From positions 1 through 35,509 of the IMG/VR virus record IMGVR_UViG_3300028800_000219: a DNA stretch of 35,509 bases; one strand, given 5' to 3'. The DNA is from a virus. Positions 6,708-31,635 of this stretch are shown piece by piece. The stretch's first letter is position 1, and every line of letters starts with the position of its first letter. The notes beneath the pieces were generated by a model. The model was not told the origin of the DNA. It saw only the letters and a list, made by a program, of their open reading frames with translations, and did not search any database. The translations under genes were made by a program, and so were the position numbers.

Positions 6708-6782
6708 TGGAGCTCCTGCGAGGAATTGAACCCCGGTCTCGCCGGTACGAACGGCGCGCAATGGCCACTATACGACAAGAGC
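6708..6782 (-). tRNA. tRNA-Thr (CGT)
   Basis: Acceptor GCTCTTG pairs with CAGGAGC; anticodon stem CGCCG/CGGCG closes the loop TTCGTAC (anticodon CGT, reads ACG). T arm CGGGG-TTCAATT-CCTCG. Discriminator T, encoded CCA. Last gene of the array, just upstream of the HNH gene. Confidence 0.9.
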
Positions 6783-6783
6783 A

Positions 6784-6862
6784 TGGAGGACCACCTGGGA
6801 ATCGAACCCAGCAGGAAACGGGTTAAGAAGCCGTCGCACACACCAGTGAGTGCATGTGGTCC
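6784..6862 (-). tRNA. tRNA-Lys (CTT)
   Basis: Acceptor GGACCAC/GTGGTCC; loop TTCTTAA gives anticodon CTT (AAG). One C-C mismatch closes the anticodon stem. Encoded CCA with discriminator T. A second Lys tRNA (TTT) lies at 7728. Confidence 0.9.
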
Positions 6863-6865
6863 ATT

Positions 6866-6942
6866 TGGTACGCGACCTCGGATTCGAACCGAGAAAACTC
6901 CCCGTCTTGAGCGGGGCGACTTTACCATTTGCCCAGTCGCGC
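6866..6942 (-). tRNA. tRNA with Leu anticodon CAA, short variable loop
   Basis: Acceptor GCGCGAC/GTCGCGT (G1-U72 wobble), anticodon stem CCCCG/CGGGG, loop CTCAAGA, anticodon CAA (UUG), A73, encoded CCA. The variable region is only AGTTTT, whereas bacterial tRNA-Leu normally has a long variable arm. The body is nearly the same as that of the CAG tRNA at 8348, so the two probably arose by duplication. Isotype by anticodon only. Confidence 0.85.
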
Positions 6943-6945
6943 GTC

Positions 6946-7018
6946 TGGCGCTCTCGGGGCGAGTCGAACGCCCATCCCGCCGGTTCGGAGCCGGTGGTGC
7001 TGATCCGCAGCCGAGAGC
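6946..7018 (-). tRNA. tRNA-Arg (CCG)
   Basis: Acceptor GCTCTCG/CGAGAGC; loop CTCCGAA gives anticodon CCG (CGG). Discriminator G, encoded CCA. One of four Arg tRNAs in the array. Confidence 0.9.
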
Positions 7019-7021
7019 ATC

Positions 7022-7092
7022 TGGTGGCCCATGCAGGAATCGAACCCGCCGTCCTTGGCTTAGAACGCCTAGCCTGTCCCAGCAGATGGGCC
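7022..7092 (-). tRNA. tRNA-Arg (TCT)
   Basis: Acceptor GGCCCAT/ATGGGCC; loop GTTCTAA gives anticodon TCT (AGA). The anticodon stem has one mismatch. A73 and encoded CCA. Short, 71 nt. Confidence 0.85.
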
Positions 7093-7096
7093 GATA

Positions 7097-7169
7097 TGGC
7101 GCCCCGCCGCCGAGTCGAACGGCGCGTTCCGGTTTCGTAGACCAGACTCCGAATTCCGTCGGGCGGGGC
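7097..7169 (-). tRNA. tRNA-Arg (ACG)
   Basis: Acceptor GCCCCGC/GCGGGGC; anticodon stem CTGGT/ACCGG around loop CTACGAA; anticodon ACG, presumably deaminated to ICG to read CGU/CGC/CGA. Discriminator G, encoded CCA. Confidence 0.9.
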
Positions 7170-7173
7170 AAGC

Positions 7174-7248
7174 TGGTGCCGCGTACGGGTATCGAACCCG
7201 TCTCACCGCTTTGAAAGAGCGGCCGCCTCACCTGAAGCGTAACGCGGC
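7174..7248 (-). tRNA. tRNA-Glu (TTC)
   Basis: Acceptor GCCGCGT/ACGCGGC; stem CCGCT/AGCGG around loop CTTTCAA; anticodon TTC (GAA/GAG). A73, encoded CCA. A second Glu tRNA (CTC) lies at 8590. Confidence 0.92.
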
Positions 7249-7252
7249 GAAC

Positions 7253-7328
7253 TGGTGGAGCTTGTGGGACTCGAACCCACGGTCTCCTGCATGCCGAGCA
7301 GGTGATCTTGCCACTGATCTAAAGCCCC
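7253..7328 (-). tRNA. tRNA-Ala (GGC), C33 variant
   Basis: Acceptor GGGGCTT/AAGCTCC with the G3-U70 pair that marks Ala. Perfect stem CCTGC/GCAGG around loop TCGGCAT: anticodon GGC (GCC). Position 33 is C, not the near-invariant U. A73, encoded CCA. Confidence 0.92.
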
Positions 7329-7332
7329 GAGA

Positions 7333-7409
7333 TGGTACGCGCCCAGAGGATCGAACTCTGCTCTATCCAGTTTGTAGGACTGGTGCCATCCCCAGATGAC
7401 TAGGCGCGC
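7333..7409 (-). tRNA. tRNA-Val (TAC), C33 variant
   Basis: Acceptor GCGCGCC/GGCGCGT (G1-U72). Stem CCAGT/ACTGG around loop CCTACAA; anticodon TAC (GUA). C replaces U33. A73, encoded CCA. The only Val tRNA found. Confidence 0.9.
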
Positions 7410-7413
7410 AAAA

Positions 7414-7489
7414 TGGTGCGGGTGACAGGATTCGAACCTGCGGTCTCCTGATCCCAAATCAGGCGCCTTGGCCACTAGGCTACACCCAC
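7414..7489 (-). tRNA. tRNA-Pro (TGG)
   Basis: Acceptor GTGGGTG/CACCCGC; stem CCTGA/TCAGG around loop TTTGGGA; anticodon TGG (CCA). A73, encoded CCA. Confidence 0.92.
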
Positions 7490-7493
7490 GTTC

Positions 7494-7564
7494 TGGCTCC
7501 CCCGGTCTGAATCGAACAGACATTCCTCGGCTTAGGACGCCAGGGCCGCTCCATCGGCGGGGGA
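7494..7564 (-). tRNA. tRNA-Arg (CCT)
   Basis: Acceptor TCCCCCG/CGGGGGA; loop GTCCTAA gives anticodon CCT (AGG). Discriminator G, encoded CCA. Short, 71 nt. Confidence 0.88.
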
Positions 7565-7568
7565 AAGT

Positions 7569-7646
7569 TGGTCAGGGTGGCGTGATTCGAACACGCGGTC
7601 TCTCGGTTCCGAACCGAGCGCTCTGGCCAGACTGAGCTACACCCTG
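7569..7646 (-). tRNA. tRNA-Pro (CGG)
   Basis: Acceptor CAGGGTG/CACCCTG (C1-G72, usual for Pro); stem CTCGG/CCGAG around loop TTCGGAA; anticodon CGG (CCG). A73, encoded CCA. Confidence 0.93.
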
Positions 7647-7647
7647 A

Positions 7648-7723
7648 TGGCGCCCGTGACGGGGATTGAACCCGCCAGCAATCGCGTGACAAGCGATGAC
7701 CCCCACCAGGGAGAATCACGGGC
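7648..7723 (-). tRNA. tRNA-Asp (GTC)
   Basis: Acceptor GCCCGTG/CACGGGC; stem ATCGC/GCGAT around loop TTGTCAC; anticodon GTC. G73 as required by AspRS; encoded CCA. Confidence 0.93.
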
Positions 7724-7727
7724 AAAT

Positions 7728-7805
7728 TGGAGGACCGGGAGGGGATCGAACCCATCCTATCTGTCGTTTAAAAGACGACTGCCCACACCAGCAGGCCACC
7801 GGTCC
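7728..7805 (-). tRNA. tRNA-Lys (TTT)
   Basis: Acceptor GGACCGG/CCGGTCC; stem GTCGT/ACGAC around loop CTTTTAA; anticodon TTT (AAA/AAG). Discriminator T, encoded CCA. Confidence 0.93.
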
Positions 7806-7813
7806 ATTTAATT

Positions 7814-7889
7814 CGGTACTTCCGGCTGGACTCGAACCAGCGATTTCTCGGTTATCGGCCGAGCGTCCTTGCCGCTAGACGACGGAAGC
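7814..7889 (-). tRNA. tRNA-Ile (GAT), C33 variant, encoded CCG end
   Basis: Acceptor GCTTCCG/CGGAAGT; perfect stem CTCGG/CCGAG around loop CCGATAA; anticodon GAT (AUC/AUU). C replaces U33. After A73 the genome encodes CCG, not CCA, so the host nucleotidyltransferase would have to repair the end; the mature body is 7817-7889. Confidence 0.88.
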
Positions 7890-7895
7890 AAACTT

Positions 7896-7980
7896 TGGTG
7901 GGTGACGGTCGAGTCGAACAACTCCCCCGAAGGGATCGGTTTTACAGACCGCTTGATAGAACCGCTATCTTTCGCCACCC
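7896..7980 (-). tRNA. tRNA-Tyr (GTA)
   Basis: Class II tRNA with long variable arm (hairpin near TCCCTTCGGGGGA). Acceptor GGGTGGC/GTCACCC; loop CTGTAAA; anticodon GTA. A73, encoded CCA. It shows that the array does use proper class II bodies for Tyr. Confidence 0.92.
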
Positions 7981-7987
7981 GTGAAAC

Positions 7988-8061
7988 TGGTGCTCCCACC
8001 TGGTACTGACCCAGGATTTATCGCTTACCAAGCGATTGCCCTACCATTGGACGATAGGAGC
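7988..8061 (-). tRNA. tRNA-Thr (GGT)
   Basis: Acceptor GCTCCTA/TGGGAGC; stem ATCGC/GCGAT around loop TTGGTAA; anticodon GGT (ACC/ACU). The T loop is GTCAGTA rather than TTCRANY. A73, encoded CCA. Confidence 0.88.
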
Positions 8062-8062
8062 G

Positions 8063-8149
8063 TGGCGGATGGCGCTGTAATCGAAACAGACGCCTTGCGG
8101 CGCGCATCGCTTAGCAGGCGAGCCACGCAACCTTGCATGTTCACCATCC
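8063..8149 (-). tRNA. tRNA-Ser (GCT)
   Basis: Class II, 87 nt, with a long variable arm. Acceptor GGATGGT/GCCATCC; loop CTGCTAA; anticodon GCT (AGC/AGU). G73 as in Ser tRNAs, encoded CCA. Confidence 0.92.
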
Positions 8150-8156
8150 ATTTGGT

Positions 8157-8243
8157 TGGCGGAAGGCGGAGGAGTCCAACCCCAGACCTTTCGGTCCCCC
8201 CTGGTTTTCAGGACCAGTTGCCACGCACGTAGCGGCACCTTCC
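8157..8243 (-). tRNA. tRNA-Ser (TGA), C33 variant
   Basis: Class II, 87 nt. Acceptor GGAAGGT/GCCTTCC; stem CTGGT/ACCAG around loop CCTGAAA; anticodon TGA (UCA). Variable arm GGGACCGAAAGGTCT forms a hairpin. C replaces U33. G73, encoded CCA. Confidence 0.9.
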
Positions 8244-8347
8244 GTAATCTTTCGCGAGCCATGAGTGCATAGGCAAACCGCCAAACAGAACCTCCCTGTT
8301 CGTTTAAGTCGACCCCGTAGGCCGTCGACACGGTCTCCTATTCTAAC
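8244..8347. other. Spacer inside tRNA array
   Basis: A spacer of 104 bp, much longer than the usual 1-8 bp between these tRNAs. On the minus strand it holds AGGAG followed by a GTG frame (STAYGVDLNEQGGSVWRF...) that would run on into the Ser(TGA) gene; the overlap with a tRNA makes coding doubtful. I see no tRNA here. It may be the scar of a lost gene or a processing spacer. Confidence 0.4.
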
Positions 8348-8424
8348 TGGTGCGCGACCCCGGACTCGAACCGGGAAAACTCTTCCTTCTGAGGGAAGCG
8401 ACTTTTCCATTTGCCCAGTCGCGC
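8348..8424 (-). tRNA. tRNA with Leu anticodon CAG, short variable loop
   Basis: Acceptor GCGCGAC/GTCGCGC; anticodon stem CTTCC/GGAAG around loop CTCAGAA; anticodon CAG (CUG). Variable region AGTTTT, only six bases. A73, encoded CCA. Shares most of its body with the CAA tRNA at 6866. Confidence 0.87.
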
Positions 8425-8431
8425 ATTTACG

Positions 8432-8507
8432 TGGTGCATGCGGCGAGACTCGAACTCGCACTTGACGGCTTCTCGAACCGCTGACTCTGCCATTGGCCTA
8501 CGCATGC
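8432..8507 (-). tRNA. tRNA with Leu anticodon GAG, short variable loop, C33
   Basis: Acceptor GCATGCG/CGCATGC; stem GCGGT/GCCGT around loop TCGAGAA; anticodon GAG (CUC/CUU). Variable region CAAGT. C replaces U33. A73, encoded CCA. An alternative register giving CGA (Ser) has a much worse stem. Confidence 0.8.
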
Positions 8508-8508
8508 A

Positions 8509-8585
8509 TGGTGCGCGCCGCCGGATTCGAACCGACACCTTGACGGGGTTTAAGCCCGCTGCCTCTGCCATTGGGCTACGCGCGC
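8509..8585 (-). tRNA. tRNA with Leu anticodon TAA, short variable loop
   Basis: Acceptor GCGCGCG/GGCGCGC (last pair mismatched); stem GCGGG/CCCGT around loop CTTAAAC; anticodon TAA (UUA/UUG). Variable region CAAGGT. A73, encoded CCA. D arm closely resembles that of the GAG tRNA next to it. Confidence 0.87.
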
Positions 8586-8589
8586 AATA

Positions 8590-8664
8590 TGGTGGCCCAT
8601 GGGGGTAACGATCCCCCACCTCCCGCTTGAGAGGCGGGTGCCCAGACCTCTAGGCGAATGGGCC
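8590..8664 (-). tRNA. tRNA-Glu (CTC)
   Basis: Acceptor GGCCCAT/ATGGGCC; stem CCCGC/GCGGG around loop CTCTCAA; anticodon CTC (GAG). T loop ATCGTTA departs from TTCRANY. A73, encoded CCA. Confidence 0.88.
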
Positions 8665-8668
8665 GAAC

Positions 8669-8740
8669 TGGCAGCGGGCGTCGGTGTCGATCCGACCGCG
8701 GCAAGCTTCAAAGGCTCGCCTGTGCGCCGGCACTCCCGCG
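8669..8740 (-). tRNA. tRNA-Gln (TTG)
   Basis: Stem CGAGC/GCTTG around loop CTTTGAA; anticodon TTG (CAA). The 1-72 position is unpaired (C-U) and position 73 is G, both recognised features for GlnRS. T loop ATCGACA is non-standard. Encoded CCA. Divergent enough that standard scanners may score it low. Confidence 0.75.
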
Positions 8741-8744
8741 AAAC

Positions 8745-8817
8745 TGGCACCGGCCGAGAGTGCCGCCCTCTCTCCGTCGAGCTTCAGAGGCTCGCGTGCG
8801 CGCTGGCGCTGACCGGA
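8745..8817 (-). tRNA. tRNA-Gln (CTG)
   Basis: Perfect stem CGAGC/GCTCG around loop CTCTGAA; anticodon CTG (CAG). U1-U72 mismatch and G73, as expected for Gln. T stem GAGAG/CTCTC encloses the unusual loop GGCGGCA. Encoded CCA. Its anticodon arm is close to that of the TTG gene beside it. Confidence 0.75.
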
Positions 8818-8823
8818 TCAAAA

Positions 8824-8898
8824 TGGTGCCCGCAGGATGGGATCGAACCTCCGTCCACCGCTTACAAGGCGGTGATCCTGCCACTGAACGATGCGGGC
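8824..8898 (-). tRNA. tRNA-Thr (TGT)
   Basis: Acceptor GCCCGCA/TGCGGGC; stem ACCGC/GCGGT around loop CTTGTAA; anticodon TGT (ACA). A73, encoded CCA. Third Thr isoacceptor. Confidence 0.93.
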
Positions 8899-8900
8899 AT

Positions 8901-8976
8901 TGGGGTGATCGGAGAGGATTGAACTCTCACATTTTCGGTCACAGCGAAACGTGCAGACCACTACACCACGACCACC
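8901..8976 (-). tRNA. tRNA-His (GTG)
   Basis: Stem TTTCG/CGAAA around loop CTGTGAC; anticodon GTG. The acceptor stem carries the extra G-1 paired with C73 that defines tRNA-His, followed by encoded CCA. T arm GAGAG-TTCAATC-CTCTC. Confidence 0.92.
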
Positions 8977-8977
8977 A

Positions 8978-9037
8978 TAAAAACACGGGGAGCCAGCTAC
9001 GGCTGACTGTTAACCCTTGATCCTCAGATCAAGCCCC
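8978..9037 (-). ncRNA. Candidate structured RNA between tRNAs
   Basis: On the minus strand this spacer folds by eye into a three-way junction: outer stem GGGG/CCCC, hairpin CTTGATC-TGAG-GATCAAG, hairpin AGCC-GTAGCT-GGCT, then GTG and a run of five T. It is not a tRNA. It could be a small RNA, a processing signal or an attenuator within the tRNA transcript. Structure is seen in the sequence; function is inference. Confidence 0.35.
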
Positions 9038-9041
9038 ATCG

Positions 9042-9117
9042 TGGAGAAGCGCCGCAGAGTTGAACTGCGTGATGCGATTTTGCAGACCGCCACCCAAAGC
9101 CCTCGGGTTCGCGCTTC
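9042..9117 (-). tRNA. tRNA-Cys (GCA)
   Basis: Acceptor GAAGCGC/GCGCTTC; stem GCGGT/ATCGC around loop CTGCAAA; anticodon GCA. U73 as needed for CysRS; encoded CCA. Confidence 0.92.
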
Positions 9118-9121
9118 AATA

Positions 9122-9195
9122 TGGCAGGAGTGGAAAGAGTTGAACTCTCGCCTGCGGATTTGGAGGCCGCCGTGCTACCGTAACACTTCACTCCC
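9122..9195 (-). tRNA. tRNA-Trp (CCA)
   Basis: Acceptor GGGAGTG/CACTCCT; loop CTCCAAA; anticodon CCA. G73 as usual for Trp; encoded CCA. One mismatch in the anticodon stem. Confidence 0.9.
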
Positions 9196-9199
9196 AAAC

Positions 9200-9276
9200 T
9201 GGCTCCTCACCCAGGTACCGCCCCTGGCAAACTTCGCTTAACAGGCGAGTCCGTTCGCTTGCTCGGATCGTGAGGA
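9200..9276 (-). tRNA. tRNA-Asn (GTT)
   Basis: Acceptor TCCTCAC/GTGAGGA (U1-A72, G73, as in bacterial Asn); loop CTGTTAA; anticodon GTT. T stem CCAGG/CCTGG encloses the non-standard loop GGCGGTA, like the Gln(CTG) gene. Encoded CCA. Confidence 0.87.
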
Positions 9277-9277
9277 A

Positions 9278-9352
9278 TGGAGCGGCATACGGGGATCGAA
9301 CCCGTCTTCAGAGCTTGGAAGGCTCGTCGTCTCCCCAGAGACGGAATGCCGC
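9278..9352 (-). tRNA. tRNA-Gly (TCC)
   Basis: Acceptor GCGGCAT/ATGCCGC; loop CTTCCAA; anticodon TCC (GGA/GGG). U73, usual for Gly; encoded CCA. Confidence 0.92.
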
Positions 9353-9356
9353 AAAC

Positions 9357-9432
9357 TGGTGCCCGAACTTCGCGTCGAACGAAGACCTCCTGCTCTTCAG
9401 ACAGGCGTGCAGGCCAGCTACACCACCCGGGC
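9357..9432 (-). tRNA. tRNA-Phe (GAA)
   Basis: Acceptor GCCCGGG/TTCGGGC with two G-U pairs; stem CCTGT/GCAGG around loop CTGAAGA; anticodon GAA. A73, encoded CCA. Confidence 0.92.
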
Positions 9433-9434
9433 AT

Positions 9435-9507
9435 TGGTTGCGGGAGACGGAATCGAACCGTCAAGCGCACGGTTATGAGCCGGCGCGGGCACCCTGTCCT
9501 TCCCGCA
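9435..9507 (-). tRNA. tRNA (CAT), initiator-like acceptor stem
   Basis: Acceptor TGCGGGA/TCCCGCA, A73, encoded CCA; loop CTCATAA; anticodon CAT. The GCGGG...CCCGCA end recalls initiator tRNA, but position 1-72 is a U-A pair instead of the C-A mismatch and the anticodon stem is weak and lacks three G-C pairs. Identity (initiator Met, elongator Met or lysidine-modified Ile) is open. Confidence 0.82.
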
Positions 9508-9510
9508 ACA

Positions 9511-9585
9511 TGGTGGACGTGCTTGGAATCGAACCAAGACCAATCAGTTATGAGCTGACAGCTCGAGCCGTCGAGCTACACGTCC
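9511..9585 (-). tRNA. tRNA (CAT), Met or Ile2
   Basis: Acceptor GGACGTG/CACGTCC; stem GTCAG/CTGAT around loop CTCATAA; anticodon CAT. A73, encoded CCA. The body resembles elongator Met and also the minor Ile tRNA that reads AUA after lysidine modification; sequence alone does not decide. Confidence 0.88.
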
Positions 9586-9980: not shown

Positions 9981-10068
9981 GCAGCCTCCCTACGCCTGTC
10001 CGTTCCGGCTCGTCAAGCACTTATTTTCAGCAGATGCTACGTTGTCGCGGAACCTGTAGGATGCCCCC

Positions 10069-11268
10069 ATGTCCGGATCCCTCGCACCGACCGTGGCCGC
10101 CGCACCGACGGCCGTTCAGTCCGCCTCGAACCTCCTGGCGATGATGGCCGCCCTGAACGGCCAGGCCACGGACTACAACCAGGGTTCCGAGGTGCGCACC
10201 TTCTCCGAGGCGAACGGACTCGTCATCGAACAGCAAGGCGTGGGCAACATGGCCTTGGCCCTGCAGGCGCTCGCCTACGGCGCGATGTCGCTGTTCAACA
10301 TCCAGCAGTCGCAGGCCGTGGCCGCTACAGGCACGGTAACATTTGCCACGTCGATACCCGTGTCCGGGGCGTTCAACTCGCCGCAGGCCATCGCCATACC
10401 GTCAGGCACCCTGGTGCAGACTGCCGGCGGCGTGCAGTTCGCCACCACGGTGGCCTCGGTCCTCGCCTCGGGCACGTCCAACGTCAGCATCGGCGTTATG
10501 GCCACGACCGCCGGCAGCGCCGGCAACGTCGGCTCCGGCGCCATATCGGGAAGTCCCCTTACGCCGCTCGGCTATCCCCTGTTCGTCACCAACGCAGCCC
10601 CCGCCGGCGGCGGCACCAACGCCGGCACGCAGTCCCTGGCGCTCGCGCAGTTCACCGCCAAGGCCGCCTCGCTCGGGCTGTGCTCCCCCGTAGCGGTCGC
10701 CAATGCCGCGATCGGCGTGGTCGCCACCGGCACCGGAGAGACGGTCGTCAAGGCTGGCGCTTTCGAGCCGTGGATCGCCGCCGGCAGCGGCGCGGGAAGC
10801 GGCACGGCAGGATTTACCCTCTACATCGACAACGGCACCGGCACCTCGTCCGCATCGCTGATCGCCGCCGTGGTGGCGTGGCTGAACGGCAGCGTCACGC
10901 TCGGTCAGAGCGGCTACCGCCCGATCGGCGTGCCCTACCAGGTCTCCGGCGTGGCGCCCGTCTACGCCAACGTCGGCGTGACCGGCGTGCTCCTGCCTGG
11001 CCTCCTGGCGACCGGTTCCGTCACCACCACGATCGTCAGCGGCATCGCCAGTTATTTCGCCAACCTCGGGGTATCGCCGTCCGCGGCCTACCAGCCGCAG
11101 GTGGCCGGCGTCGTGGCGGACGCGGGGATCGGAGCGTTTTCATCCCTGACGGTCAACCTCTACTACATGTCGTCGCCGTCCACGCCGGTCGCGCTGGTCA
11201 GCGGCGCGATAGGCACGCGGGTGATCCTGAACTCGCTCGCCACGAACATCTCGGTCAGCGGAACCTGA
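10069..11268 (+). CDS. Baseplate J-like protein (gp47/gpJ family)
   Basis: 399 residues from ATG 10069 with TAGGA upstream. The N-terminal YNQGSEVRTFSEANGLVIEQ matches the hallmark (P)GS-x-RT...EA motif of baseplate J proteins, followed by a helical part, a beta-rich middle with GTLVQTAGGVQFATT-type strands, and a C-terminal domain (SGYRPIGVPYQVSGVAPVYA) characteristic of the family. Baseplate J (P2 J, Mu gp47) forms the wedge dimers that hold the fibres and trigger contraction. It is followed directly by the I-like gene and the fibre gene, the P2-type order. Its usual upstream partner (gp25/W) lies 4 kb away, beyond the tRNA block. Confidence 0.85.
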   Translation: MSGSLAPTVAAAPTAVQSASNLLAMMAALNGQATDYNQGSEVRTFSEANGLVIEQQGVGNMALALQALAYGAMSLFNIQQSQAVAATGTVTFATSIPVSGAFNSPQAIAIPSGTLVQTAGGVQFATTVASVLASGTSNVSIGVMATTAGSAGNVGSGAISGSPLTPLGYPLFVTNAAPAGGGTNAGTQSLALAQFTAKAASLGLCSPVAVANAAIGVVATGTGETVVKAGAFEPWIAAGSGAGSGTAGFTLYIDNGTGTSSASLIAAVVAWLNGSVTLGQSGYRPIGVPYQVSGVAPVYANVGVTGVLLPGLLATGSVTTTIVSGIASYFANLGVSPSAAYQPQVAGVVADAGIGAFSSLTVNLYYMSSPSTPVALVSGAIGTRVILNSLATNISVSGT

Positions 11269-22719: not shown

Positions 22720-23649
22720 TCACCACGCCAGCGGTGTCCCGCCGATGTTGATCTGCGGCTGCAGACCGCGTTGCCGGGTCCAGAAGTCCAGCGCCTGCAC
22801 GCGAAACGCCTTCGGCAGGTTCACCGTGCCACCGCCGAACGGCCGATCGTGCGGCAGGCCGCCGGCCCGCCGGAAAGCAACGAACAGCGCTGCCGCCTGA
22901 AATTCCACCATATACGACGTGCCGGACGCGAAGCCCGCCGGCAGCGTCACGGTCGCGCCGGACACGACATAGCCCGACACCGGCGCGATCATCCTGGTGT
23001 CCGGGTTCCACGTCACGACGGCGCCCACCGGGGCTATCTGCAGGTTCTGCTGAAACGGCAGGTTCTCCGTCACGCCCGATTGCAGCATGGTCGTATAGCG
23101 CGCCAGCATGTCAACCGCGACGAATATGTCGTTCGTGCTGGCATATGTCCACGGCAGCGTCGGCTGCCTCACGTCGTCCAGATCCAGGAAGGGATTCACG
23201 TAGGGTATCGTCAACGACGGCTCGGACACCTGATCGACGCCAAACTTTGGATCCTCACGTACGCCAGGCTCGTCCGGCGACGGCGAGATGTGCCGAAACG
23301 TCATGACCGCCTGAAACGGAACCGTCGGCAAGTCCCAGTAGGTGCCGACGCCGAGGCACGTCAGGCACTGTTTCTGGGCCGATCCTGGCGTCGACAGGCG
23401 GGTCGTCGGCGCAACCGCTCCGCTCGGGAACACGGGAAATCCACCGGAACCGAATACTGGTTGCCCGGACGCGTTCACCGTCTGCATCGCGCCCATGAAC
23501 GACGGTGCCCACACGCACGGACAGGAATGCGAACGCATCCATGATATGCGCTGACCGATCTGCCCGATCAGCGCGTTGAAGTCGCTGGCTGGCAGCAGAT
23601 ACGGATCAGTCCGCGGAACGTATACGCTGCGAGTGGACGATCCCGACAT
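22720..23649 (-). CDS. Structural protein with Cys pairs, neck region
   Basis: 309 residues from ATG 23649, whose TGATG overlaps the stop of the preceding gene; the frame is open for a further 139 codons upstream but these lie within that gene and read as a shadow. Contains HSCPCVWAPSFMGAMQ and, about 60 residues later, QCLTCLGVGTYWD: four Cys residues in two pairs that could bind zinc. The rest is beta-rich with a late segment SYMVEFQAAALFVAFRRAGG. The place in the head-to-tail cluster suggests a neck or tail-adaptor protein. No named family recognised. Confidence 0.7.
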   Translation of the reverse strand: MSGSSTRSVYVPRTDPYLLPASDFNALIGQIGQRISWMRSHSCPCVWAPSFMGAMQTVNASGQPVFGSGGFPVFPSGAVAPTTRLSTPGSAQKQCLTCLGVGTYWDLPTVPFQAVMTFRHISPSPDEPGVREDPKFGVDQVSEPSLTIPYVNPFLDLDDVRQPTLPWTYASTNDIFVAVDMLARYTTMLQSGVTENLPFQQNLQIAPVGAVVTWNPDTRMIAPVSGYVVSGATVTLPAGFASGTSYMVEFQAAALFVAFRRAGGLPHDRPFGGGTVNLPKAFRVQALDFWTRQRGLQPQINIGGTPLAW

Positions 23650-24203
23650 CAGAGTTGTCCCAGAAAGAAGCCACCACCCTTCTGCAAGGCTCGTCTGGTA
23701 AGACGTTTCACTTCGTTCTCGAAATTCTTCACCTGCCCGCTGAATACGCCGGCCTCGGGATATTTCACCCTGCGCATCAGGCCGTCGACGTTGATCGTCA
23801 GTTCCGTGGCGCCGTTCGACACCGAGACGCCCATCGTTTTGAACGCCTGCACGGCCGCACGCGACATCACGAGCTGCTTCATGAAGGACCACTCGCCCTG
23901 ATAGTCGGCCGGCGTCAACCCTGCCGTATACTGGAACCACAGGCCTTGCGGCACCGACTGCGCGAATCCCATGAAGGCAAGCTGCATCGCGAACAGCGGC
24001 AGCATCTGCACAGACGTCGCCGGCACAAAGCGCAGCAGGCCGCGGTTCTGGTCCTCCACAACCCACGACGAGGGCATGCGGAAGAACTCGTTCAGCAGCG
24101 GATAGATGAAGGCGACGTTCTTGGTGCCGACGTAGTTGTTGCTGACATCGGCCGTCGGCGAGAACAGTTCCAGCGACTTAACCGGACGCCAACGGGTGCG
24201 CAC
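23649..24203 (-). CDS. Neck protein, second half after the T-run
   Basis: 184 residues if translated from GTG 24203 (GAAGGA nine bases upstream), but the frame continues upstream without stop to the ten-T run at 24234-24243 and reads ERWRDEGWGYVRTRWRPVKS, fitting directly onto the C-terminus of the upstream gene after a one-base shift. Middle segment FVPATSVQMLPLFAMQLAFM and a Gly/Tyr segment (YTAGLTPADYQGEWSF) recall phage head-tail connector proteins; the C-terminal part is basic and helical. Probably one protein with the next feature. It may be separate if the run is real and no slippage occurs. Confidence 0.65.
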   Translation of the reverse strand: MRTRWRPVKSLELFSPTADVSNNYVGTKNVAFIYPLLNEFFRMPSSWVVEDQNRGLLRFVPATSVQMLPLFAMQLAFMGFAQSVPQGLWFQYTAGLTPADYQGEWSFMKQLVMSRAAVQAFKTMGVSVSNGATELTINVDGLMRRVKYPEAGVFSGQVKNFENEVKRLTRRALQKGGGFFLGQL

Positions 24204-24231
24204 GTAGCCCCATCCTTCGTCGCGCCATCTT

Positions 24232-24642
24232 TCAAAAAAAAAAGTCGTAACCCGGCTCCGCGTAATCGTAGTCGACGCCGAGCTGCTGGTAGTTGTCCTG
24301 CACGCCGAGATTGAGAAGCTGCACCTCCTGCTGCGTCTTCGCCGCCGGCGCTGCGATCCACGTCTGGCACAGCCGGACGTTCGTCTCCGTCTCGATGTCG
24401 TCCTCGGCGTAGCGGATCCAGCTGTTCACCGTAGCATCGGAGATCGCGCCGGGCGGGTTCGTCCAGGTCTGGATCGACGTGCCGATGAACTGCTCGAGGT
24501 CCGCGCGGAGCAAGCCGGTCTTGGTGACGGCCCCCTGCACGGTCGGATACGACTCGATCTTCTGCGGCTGGCCCGATACCGGCGTGCTCCACGTCCACAG
24601 CGCCCTGGTCTGTATCGTCGGTCCGGATGTGGTAACGCTCAA
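24232..24642 (-). CDS. Head-tail adaptor-like protein, first half
   Basis: 136 residues from TTG 24642, which overlaps the GIY-YIG stop (TTGA); GGAGAG lies upstream inside the endonuclease gene. The segment GLLRADLEQFIGTSIQTWTN, followed by ATVNSWIRYAEDDIETETNV, is a helical bundle like gp6/adaptor-type connector proteins. It ends in Phe-Phe-Phe and TGA within a run of ten T. Dropping one T joins it to the frame at 23649. So this is either a frameshifted gene (slippage at the run) or a sequencing indel; a programmed event cannot be told from an error by sight. Confidence 0.65.
   Translation of the reverse strand: MSVTTSGPTIQTRALWTWSTPVSGQPQKIESYPTVQGAVTKTGLLRADLEQFIGTSIQTWTNPPGAISDATVNSWIRYAEDDIETETNVRLCQTWIAAPAAKTQQEVQLLNLGVQDNYQQLGVDYDYAEPGYDFFF
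24619..24642 (-). repeat. Duplicated gene-start sequence, copy B
   Basis: First eight codons of the neck gene. It matches the first eight codons of the GIY-YIG gene (25506-25529) at 20 of 24 positions; three of the four differences are in third codon positions. Looks like a junction duplicated at insertion of the endonuclease gene. Confidence 0.7.
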
Positions 24643-25529
24643 ACGGAACTCTCCTGAACTGTAGTTTCGATCGTAGCGTTTCTACGCTTGGCTGCCTTCG
24701 CTGCCGTTACGGCTGCACTCATGCGCGCCCTTGATTCATCTGTCCACACCCGTCTTCTGTTCGTCGCCGCCATCTTTGATTTTACTTCGGGCCGGGCCAG
24801 CGCTTTGCGCAAGGCGGCGCTCATGTTGGCGCGCATCTCGGGAGTCCACACTCTTCGGCTATTAGCCTGCGCTATTTTCTCTATTTCTGGGGCCCTGTGT
24901 TTACGTCCAGTGGCTGCAGCCGACAGTCGCAGCCGTGTTTCACAGGTGATGACACGCGCGCTGTTCGCCGCAGCTATCTTCACCTTGAATTCAGGGCTTT
25001 GCACTGTGTTCAGCAAATGCGCGGCCAGTTTTTGCTTCGTAACATCCGATAGAACACGTTCGCTGTTGGACTTCGCTACTTTGGTGCCAAACCCTTCCGG
25101 CTTTGGTTTTCCTTTTCTAGCCACACTCATTTTGTGCCTGGATTCGGCGGATATCACCTTACCCTTGTGCTTGTCGCTCATGGCCATCTTGGCGACTGTC
25201 GTATGTTTGTAGCCGACAGTTCCCTCCCCGCCTTCCGTCAGGTTGTAGCCGCGAGGAACCAACGTACTGTATTCAGTTATGGCTGCTATTTCTATCTTAA
25301 CAGCATCCTGCCACGTAAGGGCGGAGCCGATCACGTGCACGCTGAAATCGTTGACGCCGTACTTGCGCATGGCCTTATGGATTAGCGCCACGCTGCCGTT
25401 CTTGGCTTGTCTGCAGTGCTCCTTGAACCGTTTAGCCGCACCGTTCCTGGATACACCCACGTATGCCTTCGAAGTCGATCGGCACGTCAACAGGTATATT
25501 TCGATTGGTCCGTACGTGGTGACGCTCAA
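24639..25529 (-). CDS. GIY-YIG homing endonuclease
   Basis: 296 residues from TTG 25529, overlapping the upstream stop as TTGA. Residues about 9-95 form the GIY-YIG nuclease fold: IYLLTCRSTSKAYVGVS (GIY and YIG equivalents), the conserved Arg in KRFKEHC, and a C-terminal EIAAITEYSTLVPRGYNLTE with the catalytic Glu region. The rest carries repeated NUMOD3-type DNA-binding motifs (MSDKHKGKVISAESRHKMSV and related units with SARV, SRRV, RRRVW). The gene is more AT-rich than its neighbours, indicating transfer. It sits exactly between two head genes without breaking either, and its start copies that of the downstream gene. A free-standing homing nuclease is most likely. Confidence 0.92.
   Translation of the reverse strand: MSVTTYGPIEIYLLTCRSTSKAYVGVSRNGAAKRFKEHCRQAKNGSVALIHKAMRKYGVNDFSVHVIGSALTWQDAVKIEIAAITEYSTLVPRGYNLTEGGEGTVGYKHTTVAKMAMSDKHKGKVISAESRHKMSVARKGKPKPEGFGTKVAKSNSERVLSDVTKQKLAAHLLNTVQSPEFKVKIAAANSARVITCETRLRLSAAATGRKHRAPEIEKIAQANSRRVWTPEMRANMSAALRKALARPEVKSKMAATNRRRVWTDESRARMSAAVTAAKAAKRRNATIETTVQESSV
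25506..25529 (-). repeat. Duplicated gene-start sequence, copy A
   Basis: First eight codons of the GIY-YIG gene, TTGAGCGTCACCAC and ten further bases. Partner of the repeat at 24619-24642; both contain a TTGA stop/start overlap. Confidence 0.7.
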
Positions 25530-28579: not shown

Positions 28580-30760
28580 TTACGCGGCATGCCTGGTGAT
28601 CACTTCCTGTATCTTTGGCGGCAACCGGTTAACCTTCGCCTGGACGATGTCATTCGGCAGGCCCATCCGCGCGCTGGTGATCGCATCGCGCGCTCGGTCG
28701 GCGTCCTCGAAGGTGATGTCGTTGTTGTCGCGCAGTTCGTTGATCGCCTTTTCCGTCATGGCCAGCTTGTCGCCGCCGGCCTTGGCCAGCGCGAACACCG
28801 GCGGCAGACGCTGCCCGTCATCGGTGACGGACGTCTTTTGACCGGAGATCGCCGCAAACAGATCCTGCACGTTCGCTGTCAGCATACCCATGCCAGCCGC
28901 TGCCTTGCTGATCTGTTCGACCGCCTTCCGCAGGTCGGCACGCTCCGTCGAAGTATCGGCACCCTTGCCGACTTCGCGCGCAGTCGACGCTGGCCAGATC
29001 TTCTGATTGTCGGACTGTGCTGCGGCCAGGCCCTTGCGGCCGGCCTTGGCCTTGGCAATCCGGTCCTGCACGACCTTCGTTGCCGGCCCGATCTTGCCAC
29101 CCTTGACGGCGATCGACGCCGCCAGATAGGCGTCTGCCTTGGCAAGATGGTTCTTCGCCGCTTTGCGCAGCGCCTTCACCACCGGTGCGCCTTCAGGCTT
29201 CGCGAGGAACGGCGCGGCCTTCTGGACGCATGCGCGCGCCTTGCGCACGCGAGACTTGGCCAGCAGACGCAGCTTGGCGGCCTGCATGGACTTCGCCTTG
29301 TCGTCATCGTTGTCGTCGTCGTCATCCTCTTCTTCGATCTCGTTGACGACTTCGACGTCGGTGCCGGAACCGGACTCCTCTTCGTCGTCCTCCTCGGACT
29401 CCTCTTCGGCGGCCTTGGCCACGATAATGGCCTTCTCGACCTCGGTCTCGGCTTCCTTCTCCTCGTCCTTCTCCTCGTCGCGCTCTTCCTCCGCCTTGCG
29501 CACCGCATGACGCGCTGCGGTCTTGATCGCTGACTTGAAGTCCAGACCGGCGATCGCCTTGGTCACGGCTGCGGACACGAGCGCCTGAAGCGCGGCCTCG
29601 TCCACCGACTTGGCGACCGACGCCTCGAGGATCGCGAACTGCTGTCCTTGCGCCTCGACCGCCTTCAGGATCGACTTCATGGCTCCGCGGGCCGCCGCGA
29701 TGTCGCGCCCGAGACGTTCGGTCGCTGACTGCACCCCGCTCTGGGGGGCATGACGGGAATATTCGCCTTCCATCTTTTCGGCGCCGTCGCCCGAGGACTG
29801 CTGCGTGGGACCAACCGGCACCTTGCCAGGAGCGACCTTGCTGCCGGGGCCGTGCGCGTGCACGGTCTCAAGATGATCGTCCGGCGGTCCGCTCCACTGG
29901 TCCTCGACAATGCCGATCCGGCCGCGGTCGTCGCCCATGTCGAGCAGATGGTTGGCCTTGCCAAGCTCCGTATCAGCCAGCACCGACGCGTCCTTGAACA
30001 GCGTGCTGCGCTGTTCCTGCGTCGCGCTGCCGATGAGGCTGGCGATGACGCGGGTCACGAGACCTGCCGCCTTGGGCTCAGTGACGGTGGCGGTAACAAT
30101 CGGATCCATGTGGCCTCCAGAAGTGCTTCGTCCATGTAGTCCGCGGCATTTGGCGCACGGGCACGTCGTAGCGACACCGTATGTACCGTCCGCGCTCTTT
30201 ACCGATGCCGAAGGGGGGCGGTACGCCAACGGTTTCTTCGTATCGCCGGAACGCAGCCATTGCTTGAATTCATCGAACGTCAGCCGCGTGACGGCACCGA
30301 TGCGCTGTTGGCCCTTTCCGTCGGAAAAGCCCGCCAGATACGTCCGATGCGCGATCGCCGCGTTCGGGAACCCGAGCATGCACTTCGCTTCGTCGTATTG
30401 GTGGTTGTGATGATGCCGCTGATCTATAACCCAGACCGGCAGATCCTCCGCCCGGTGTGAATCCGGCCCAAGGTAGACGTCCACCTGACCGCCGTCGTGC
30501 GCGATGGTGCGCTTCACGTACCCATAGTCCGCCGGCATATAAACGTGCCAGCGGGCGCCGTTCGGGTCGGTACCGCGACGTATGTGGTCCTTCGGCGTCT
30601 CGATGGTGACCTGCAGCCCGCCAACGACGACGTGCGCCATCTTGTAGTTGTCGGCGCGCGCCTGCGCCTCGGACGGACGGTTGACGCGCCGCGTCGCTCG
30701 CTCCAGGTCGCCCGGTCGATCGATGACGAGAGGATTGTCGCCGGTTCCCGGAGCAGCCAT
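28580..30760 (-). CDS. Pyrophosphatase-like domain fused to scaffold-like protein
   Basis: 726 residues from ATG 30760, two bases after the protease stop. Residues about 45-160 match the phage-type inorganic-pyrophosphatase-like domain (DYGYVKRTIAHDGGQVDVYL followed by GP, then VDQ/VIDQRHHHNHQYDEAKCM, LGFP and FDEFKQWL). This is followed by a small CPCAKC motif and then a long, charged, helix-rich region with acidic coiled coil (DEEKDEEKEAETEVEKAII), Asp/Glu clusters and Lys/Ala-rich helices, typical of internal scaffold proteins. An internal ATG at 30109 with GGAGG upstream could produce a separate scaffold form of about 509 residues. It lies between protease and capsid genes. Confidence 0.72.
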   Translation of the reverse strand: MAAPGTGDNPLVIDRPGDLERATRRVNRPSEAQARADNYKMAHVVVGGLQVTIETPKDHIRRGTDPNGARWHVYMPADYGYVKRTIAHDGGQVDVYLGPDSHRAEDLPVWVIDQRHHHNHQYDEAKCMLGFPNAAIAHRTYLAGFSDGKGQQRIGAVTRLTFDEFKQWLRSGDTKKPLAYRPPSASVKSADGTYGVATTCPCAKCRGLHGRSTSGGHMDPIVTATVTEPKAAGLVTRVIASLIGSATQEQRSTLFKDASVLADTELGKANHLLDMGDDRGRIGIVEDQWSGPPDDHLETVHAHGPGSKVAPGKVPVGPTQQSSGDGAEKMEGEYSRHAPQSGVQSATERLGRDIAAARGAMKSILKAVEAQGQQFAILEASVAKSVDEAALQALVSAAVTKAIAGLDFKSAIKTAARHAVRKAEEERDEEKDEEKEAETEVEKAIIVAKAAEEESEEDDEEESGSGTDVEVVNEIEEEDDDDDNDDDKAKSMQAAKLRLLAKSRVRKARACVQKAAPFLAKPEGAPVVKALRKAAKNHLAKADAYLAASIAVKGGKIGPATKVVQDRIAKAKAGRKGLAAAQSDNQKIWPASTAREVGKGADTSTERADLRKAVEQISKAAAGMGMLTANVQDLFAAISGQKTSVTDDGQRLPPVFALAKAGGDKLAMTEKAINELRDNNDITFEDADRARDAITSARMGLPNDIVQAKVNRLPPKIQEVITRHAA

Positions 30761-30762
30761 GC

Positions 30763-31635
30763 CTACAGGCCGGACACCGGACTGGAAACGCCCTGCATCT
30801 GGGACAGATTGGCCGGGCGGTTCATGAGATGGTTGTACATCATGGAGTGCGCCAGGATGTCGGCGTGCCCCTCGGAGCAGCCTTTGCAGGCCTTGAAGTG
30901 CTCGCGGTAGCCGAGCACGGACGGCTGCTCGTGCACGCCGCAGTTCGGGCACGGCTGGGCCGCGTCCGCCACCGTGTCCGGCAGCCAGGACACCGGCGAC
31001 ACCTGCATGCCGGTGTGTGACTTGACCAGTTCCGCCAGGTAGGACTTCGCCGTCACGATCCGCGTCGGCGAGGACAGCGACGTGTTCTTCGGTGCCCGGG
31101 TGAACGCCAGGCTGCGCCAGTCTATCGACTTGATGATAAAGCGTTTTGCCCCGCTCCTGGAGCACTCACCCTTCGTGCAGTCCTCCATGTCGGTCGGCCA
31201 GCCGTAGATGGACGAGAACCACATGACCGGTGGATCGCGTCGGAGCGACGCCCAGAACTCGTCGTATTTGTTCCGCACCGGGTCCTCGCGGCCGTCCAGG
31301 CTGCGGCTGATCTCCCCTTCGACGAAGGTGGAATTGTTCTCACCCTTCCGCACGGAAAGCGGTCGTCCGACGATATAGGACGACGGATCGGATATGCCCA
31401 TGCGAGCGCCAAGCTCGGACAGGTGATCGATGTCGAGGTGTCCGGTCGCGACGAACGATTCGGCCGACTTCAGCAGGGCGTCCTGCATAACGATATCACC
31501 GTCGTAGTCGACGGACTCGTCGCTGGCCTGTACCTCTACGACACGACGTCCGCTGCCCGACTGATGATACGACTTGATGACGCATGGAATCTGCGCCACC
31601 ACGGCCCGGTCGAGGTCATCCAGCGAGGTGATCAT
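30763..31635 (-). CDS. Prohead protease, S78/XkdF-like, putative
   Basis: 290 residues from ATG 31635. The N-terminal domain reads VVEVQASDESVDYDGDIVMQ, then FVATGHLDIDHLSEL, a pattern of phage head maturation proteases (self-excising serine proteases whose catalytic His follows a DGDIV-type strand), and KSIDWRSLAFTRAPKNTSL at the end of the domain, a usual motif with Ser/Thr and Arg. A late CPNCG...CKGC pattern may bind zinc. It sits before the scaffold-like and capsid genes, where the protease normally is. The catalytic Ser is not certain by eye; function is a good but not proven assignment. Confidence 0.68.
   Translation of the reverse strand: MITSLDDLDRAVVAQIPCVIKSYHQSGSGRRVVEVQASDESVDYDGDIVMQDALLKSAESFVATGHLDIDHLSELGARMGISDPSSYIVGRPLSVRKGENNSTFVEGEISRSLDGREDPVRNKYDEFWASLRRDPPVMWFSSIYGWPTDMEDCTKGECSRSGAKRFIIKSIDWRSLAFTRAPKNTSLSSPTRIVTAKSYLAELVKSHTGMQVSPVSWLPDTVADAAQPCPNCGVHEQPSVLGYREHFKACKGCSEGHADILAHSMMYNHLMNRPANLSQMQGVSSPVSGL

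Follow-up and report, generated by a model that had tools for sequence, protein, structure and literature searches.

Free-standing homing nucleases have to enter packed phage operons without harm and, at the same time, have to spare their own genome. How both can be achieved is the question raised by a 35.5-kb virus contig (IMG/VR record IMGVR_UViG_3300028800_000219, positions 1 to 35,509, analysed over its whole length and referred to here as the window; 63% GC), in which a GIY-YIG nuclease gene occupies precisely the boundary between two others and opens with a near copy of the start of the gene that follows it.

A GIY-YIG homing endonuclease between two genes of an operon

On the minus strand of the window, the capsid gene is followed by small genes, gene d, a gene that we call ‘up’, the nuclease, the downstream (target) gene and other structural genes (Table 1). 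For ‘up’, we used the 93-aa open reading frame, whose form is conserved in relatives, rather than the 161-aa maximal frame; tblastn matches in eight relatives (L002, L003, L004, L005, L007, L010, L011, and L012) start at or near its ATG. The nuclease overlaps each flanking gene by TTGA only. More specifically, the upstream gene ends in ...AAGAATTGAGCGTCACCACGTACGGACCA, where AAT TGA provides the stop and the TTG start of the nuclease lies in the +1 frame, and the nuclease ends in ...TCCGTTTGAGCGTTACCACATCCGGACCG, where GTT TGA provides the stop and the downstream gene again starts with TTG.

Table 1. Features of the nuclease locus (positions in the window).
Feature	Position	Strand	Basis or remark
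Major capsid gene	28590-26608	-	phrog_752
Gene d	26058-25813	-	
Upstream gene ‘up’, 93 aa	25526..25807	-	TGA overlaps nuclease start
Free-standing GIY-YIG/NUMOD3 homing endonuclease (predicted), 296 aa, TTG start	24639..25529	-	Pfam, PHROG, residues, model
Copy 1 of the 24-nt start, nuclease start	25506..25529	-	TTGAGCGTCACCACGTACGGACCA
Copy 2 of the 24-nt start, downstream gene start	24619..24642	-	TTGAGCGTTACCACATCCGGACCG
Downstream (target) gene, 5' part, ending ...YDFFF* at the T10 run	24232..24642	-	single ORF in 8 relatives
T10 run (A10 on the plus strand), then GAAAGA	24234..24243	-	last T begins the TGA stop
Low-GC3 recoded patch around T10, conserved peptide YDFFFERxRDEGW	24192..24261	-	GC3
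Downstream gene, 3' part, shifted frame, phrog_772-like tail protein	23649..24243	-	phrog_772, 7.7e-10

Several lines of evidence bear on the identity of the nuclease. Pfam finds GIY-YIG (2.9e-6) and NUMOD3 (8e-11) domains, the nearest PHROG is 314, homing endonuclease (2.2e-36), and the catalytic residues Y12, Y23, G25, R34, H38, E80, and N96 are invariant across 31 homologues. The best structural match of its AlphaFold model is the I-TevI catalytic domain (1mk0; TM 0.83 on the target, E 1.4e-5). The gene thus combines GIY-YIG residues and fold with a position between genes and absence from the same site in relatives, the features of the Seg type, and judged by its sequence it is a free-standing GIY-YIG homing endonuclease of that type, for which site-specific cleavage is predicted. 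Residues 1–8 form a coil in the model, and similarity to other GIY-YIG nucleases starts at about residue 9–11, so that the copied leader described below falls outside the GIY-YIG domain. A mobile group I intron or an intein was rejected, since an Rfam scan found no group I/II intron or other RNA element around the nuclease and Pfam no splicing domains. Searches of viral contigs and phage records with the nuclease or the target protein alone returned no close relatives beyond the contigs named here, and a NUMOD3 search of 398 bacterial genomes gave a single, uninformative match.

Elsewhere in the window, 18 tRNA genes are clustered on the minus strand at 6711-9585, and an 861-aa protein with a Pfam InPase domain (PF18823, 7.5e-41) is encoded next to the capsid gene, at 28580-31165 on the minus strand.

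Nuclease and downstream gene share a near-identical start

Compared over their first 24 nt, the nuclease and the downstream gene are identical at 20 of 24 positions. Three of the four differences are synonymous (GTC/GTT, ACG/ACA, and CCA/CCG), the remaining one being TAC/TCC (Tyr/Ser). With the start codon set aside, 17 of 21 positions match, while the best of 1,473 other ATG-, GTG- or TTG-started stretches in the window reaches 13 of 21 (z 5.6). We therefore reject a chance match of start sequences, none of the 1,473 in-genome starts matching as well, and the copied start proposed by an earlier note on this DNA holds. On its left side the repeat extends no further than the start codon, and its right end lies just before the GIY-YIG core. 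No longer duplication including the ribosome-binding region was found, the copies being unrelated upstream of their start codons, nor is there any likeness between the ends of the nuclease and those of the upstream gene. A CAGGAG element stands upstream of the downstream gene's TTG, within the 3' end of the nuclease.

To place this arrangement in context, we surveyed related nucleases in viral contigs and phage records, a set of 89 non-redundant loci. The score of nuclease start against downstream start is at least 15 in two of them only, the window and the related contig L007, and among nuclease-start/downstream-start pairs drawn from different loci it reaches 15 or more in 1 of 7,832. The nuclease stop overlaps a following NTGA in 27 of the 89 loci, and junction insertion by itself is therefore ordinary. 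Accordingly, the suggestion that the element is unusual applies to the copied start and not to the overlap. Apparent start or end copies in L020, L106, L112, L113, and L114 were rejected as artefacts of open-frame extension on short frames. In Acinetobacter phage Octan (L136, 1501-2244), a GIY-YIG nuclease separates genes 4 and 2 and overlaps each of its neighbours by ATGA, but has no copied start.

The same junction in related phages

Nine further phage contigs were found through the capsid protein and a conserved part of the downstream gene (L002, L003, L004, L005, L007, L010, L011, L012, and L121). Seven of these have a bare stop/start junction between ‘up’ and the downstream gene: TAA|GTG in L002, an ATGA overlap in L004, a ATGTCTGA overlap in L005, and the two genes within about 12 nt of each other in L003, L010, L011, and L012. 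The proposed insertion exactly at a stop/start junction is thus borne out insofar as relatives lacking the nuclease join ‘up’ directly to the downstream gene. None of them carries the exact empty site, because the first codons vary between phages.

In L121, an IscB-like gene (RRXRR and HNH domains; 260-1933) occupies the same junction, with an ATGA overlap to the downstream start, which marks the junction as a repeated landing site. ATGNCTGAAGNCAGGGGNTT is present at both ends of this IscB-like gene, and the locus has no Rfam match at gathering score.

A second case of the copied start, sought among orthologues, was found in L007. A sister nuclease (44% identical; start coordinate 4651) occupies the same junction there and shares an ATGA with the gene on either side. 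Its start ATGAGTCAAGCCTCCCCGCAA is a copy of the start of its neighbour, ATGAGCCAATCCTCCCCGCAG (MSQASPQ/MSQSSPQ), in a sequence unrelated to that of the window. Outside the start codon 15 of 18 positions match, against a maximum of 10 among 432 others (z 5.3). The copied length is 20–21 nt, compared with 24 nt in the window. Contig L094, which comes from a different sample, matches L007 at 100% identity over 4,372 bp, so L007 is not a one-off assembly.

The starts match within but not between the two genomes (6 of 21 positions for the window nuclease against the L007 target), although the nucleases are sisters at the same site; the copies are therefore local. Taken together, these sequence comparisons indicate that the copies arose, or were maintained as a matching pair, within each lineage once the two nucleases had split. 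L007 otherwise groups with L002, L003, and L005, so that the nuclease-bearing phages are not sisters and fall within groups of nuclease-free phages, a pattern that a mobile cassette would be expected to produce.

Other nuclease genes occur nearby in these relatives. HNH nuclease genes lie on the opposite strand between the capsid gene and ‘up’ in L005 (9948-11531, minus) and L007 (2480-4300, minus); in L003 a GIY-YIG nuclease and a phrog_20074-like protein are joined in a single frame (10030-11148); and in L004 (799-1714) and L012 (85-1011) a small ribbon-helix-helix-like gene directly precedes a GIY-YIG nuclease, possibly as a regulator pair.

The downstream gene is broken at a recoded T10 run

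The earlier note held that both neighbours remain intact. This is contradicted by the downstream gene, which is frame-broken at 24234-24243. In the eight relatives that lack a GIY-YIG nuclease at the junction, the gene is one open reading frame of 324–363 aa. In the window and L007, and in these two phages only, it stops at the same codon (DFFF*) and the remainder of the protein continues in another frame; in the window, this 3' part is 57–67% identical to its relatives over 184 aa. The break coincides with a 22-nt sequence, TACGAC-T10-GAAAGA, common to both phages, at which the run of the relatives is shorter by one T and their codons are mixed (TTCTTCTTC, TTTTTCTTT). T10-GAAAGA lies about 395 nt after the nuclease and is present in both phages with a junction GIY-YIG and in none of the eight others, a co-occurrence that amounts by arithmetic to 1 in 45 and, coming from two nuclease-bearing phages only, limits the case for a cassette. 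Apart from T10, the window has no A/T run that reaches 7. Within 1.5 kb downstream of the nuclease, no other locus of the 89-locus set has an A/T run of at least 9, a comparison to be read with the GC-richness of the window and L007 in mind.

Recoding extends beyond the run. GC3 of the patch is 0.57 against 0.85 for the rest of the gene in the window (z -3.4) and 0.41 against 0.89 in L007 (z -7.0), a drop that spans about 23 codons, with atypical, AT-ending choices, while the peptide YDFFFERxRDEGW is kept. In L007, TTT makes up 2% of Phe codons and AGA none of 61 Arg codons. Given genome usage, the codons chosen in the patch have a joint probability of 2e-4 in the window and 4e-8 in L007. No stretch of the L007 gene has a lower GC3 than the patch, and in the window the patch is near the bottom of the range for the gene. 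Identity between the window and L007 exceeds background just around the patch and not elsewhere, ranking first of 45 pairs for a region that was chosen post hoc, and a tree of this short segment gives no supported grouping of the two (43% of bootstrap trees). L121 and L005 show a GC3 dip at the same peptide without T10, which counts against a cassette. An AlphaFold model of the target protein is poor (mean pLDDT 45) and was set aside.

Rescue by slippage requires an A or T run longer than 7, with a bias of bacterial RNA polymerase to T (PMC6260861), and an interrupted tssM of Citrobacter is rescued by an 11-A run (PMC4256274). The T10 run has the features of a slippage gene, namely an A/T run of about 8 or more with an open frame beyond, and it resembles tssM in that a run of at least 10 A/T stands at or just before the stop with a long frame behind; slippage is predicted here. 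No stimulatory RNA structure for a ribosomal signal was found at T10 (RNA z-scores -0.86 and -0.29), which favours transcriptional slippage.

Skewed codons also occur at other places in these phages. In four of them, with a nuclease gene directly behind the capsid gene, the last 60 codons of the capsid gene have a clearly lower GC3 than the gene averages (L003 9700-9881, L004 400-628, L005 9700-9896, and L007 2300-2500); the nuclease is GIY-YIG in L003 and L004 and HNH in L005 and L007. Such recoding is absent from the capsid 3' end in three phages without a nuclease behind it (the window, L002, and L011). The capsid pattern fits carriers recoding conserved stretches beside these nucleases. 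That idea is weakened by L004 and L010, where the last 40 codons of the downstream gene have GC3 dips (z -7.6 and -9.0) with no adjoining nuclease seen.

A proposed mechanism

We propose that a GIY-YIG homing endonuclease entered where the stop of one phage structural gene meets the start of the next, co-directional one, and that the insertion duplicated the first 7–8 codons of the downstream gene. One copy would now start the nuclease just before the GIY-YIG core while the other still starts the downstream gene. With its stop inside the start of that gene, the nuclease would take over the old ribosome-loading position of its neighbour, and the downstream gene would be re-loaded from the 3' end of the nuclease by way of CAGGAG. 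The T10 patch most likely corresponds to the nuclease cleavage site of nuclease-free phages; changed in the nuclease-bearing phage, it would no longer be cut, and homing would carry it along with the nuclease. The frame is broken by the extra T; slippage on T10 would probably yield the full-length protein. That nuclease, captured neighbour start and recoded resistant site form a homing cassette decoded by slippage is the reading toward which we lean, at somewhat better than an even chance. A site 395 nt from the insertion gives no reason for insertion at the junction and counts against it. If a one-T read error had occurred in both lineages, the frame break would vanish and the recoded patch would stay.

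Alternative explanations

The copied starts may instead reflect concerted evolution after an old insertion, with gene conversion, or homing that recurs between allelic phages, maintaining the likeness of the copies. Sister nucleases at one site do suggest a single ancestral insertion, and the mostly synonymous differences within each pair are those expected between alleles of one gene start; the unequal copied lengths and the nesting of nuclease-bearing among nuclease-free phages speak against it. We consider this account rather unlikely, while noting that from two cases concerted evolution and independent capture cannot be separated. Far less credible is coincidence or artefact, a chance start match with T10 as an assembly error. 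Short two-copy repeats are often due to chance and homopolymers are error-prone, yet the start matches stand out in both genomes and line up with the start codons, and T10 is found in two phages that have diverged from each other, with the identical run in a third contig obtained from a different sample. For the start copy, this explanation is refuted.

Other alternatives concern the frame break. Junction insertion with a captured start could be real and T10 an unrelated programmed slippage site, yielding a short and a long tail protein and inherited or transferred independently. Two needed length variants made from one gene by slippage are known (PMC4256274), and exact conservation of the T10 motif, while the nuclease has diverged to 44%, is as for a functional site. 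Against this stand the perfect co-occurrence of T10 and nuclease in non-sister phages, the single frame in eight relatives, and a codon skew over about 23 codons, beyond the need of a slippery run; we regard it as unlikely, slightly more so than concerted evolution. A gene in pieces, with two proteins and re-initiation after DFFF* as in T4 39/60 or Aeh1 nrdA, is improbable. The window does have a GTG at 24203 after an AAGGA-like element, and split genes beside homing nucleases have precedents (PMC2988022), but L007 has no start codon at the matching place and the conserved ERxRDEGW...RWRP segment would be lost.

Relation to known systems

For a nuclease linked to recoding, the textbook example is T4 mobA together with the gene 60 bypass. 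The 50-nt gap of gene 60 goes with mobA; it is a possible protection against the nuclease, and ribosomes bypass it (PMC5009743, PMC3014915). The two have been described as a mobile cassette (Bonocora et al. 2011, as cited in PMC4592705). The present locus is alike in that a nuclease lies beside a gene frame-broken downstream by sequence absent from nuclease-free relatives. In T4, the break is thought to be protective against the nuclease and tolerated by recoding; here, both are suggested by analogy, the recoded codons lending indirect support to protection. The differences are that the nuclease is GIY-YIG rather than HNH; that the break is one extra T in T10 with no notable RNA structure, unlike the gene 60 bypass with its 50 nt, take-off and landing codons and hairpin; and that the nuclease sits at a gene boundary, whereas mobA splits its gene. 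By this analogy the window locus may work like the mobA/bypass cassette without being a member of it.

The locus also resembles the Seg endonucleases of T4-like phages in its GIY-YIG core, NUMOD3 repeats and intergenic position inside an operon. According to the sections of a review that deal with them (PMC2988022), Seg and Mob nucleases adjoin and cut conserved genes; a copied neighbour start, as found here, is not reported for Seg in those sections. The nearest precedent for the copied start comes from fungal mitochondria, where free-standing GIY-YIG genes are duplicated with the N-terminus of atp9 (PMC7487136). Both cases tie a nuclease gene to a duplicated piece of a host gene start, but there the host N-terminus is copied along with the nuclease, whereas here 20–24 nt are reused as the nuclease's own start.

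Two diverged phages thus give a concrete answer to harmless entry, a copied neighbour start with a shared stop/start overlap. A recoded, frame-broken site decoded by slippage is a candidate answer to self-cutting. More tentatively, and at rather less than an even chance, nuclease, captured start and T10 patch may make up a single mobile cassette. This would be a second solution of the mobA/gene 60 type, reached independently, in which a frame-breaking immunity site would be read by slippage of RNA polymerase or ribosome on T10 and a start would be gained in a new way without harm to the operon. Such a second and mechanistically different case of a nuclease linked to recoding, if true, would make the origin of such recoding testable.
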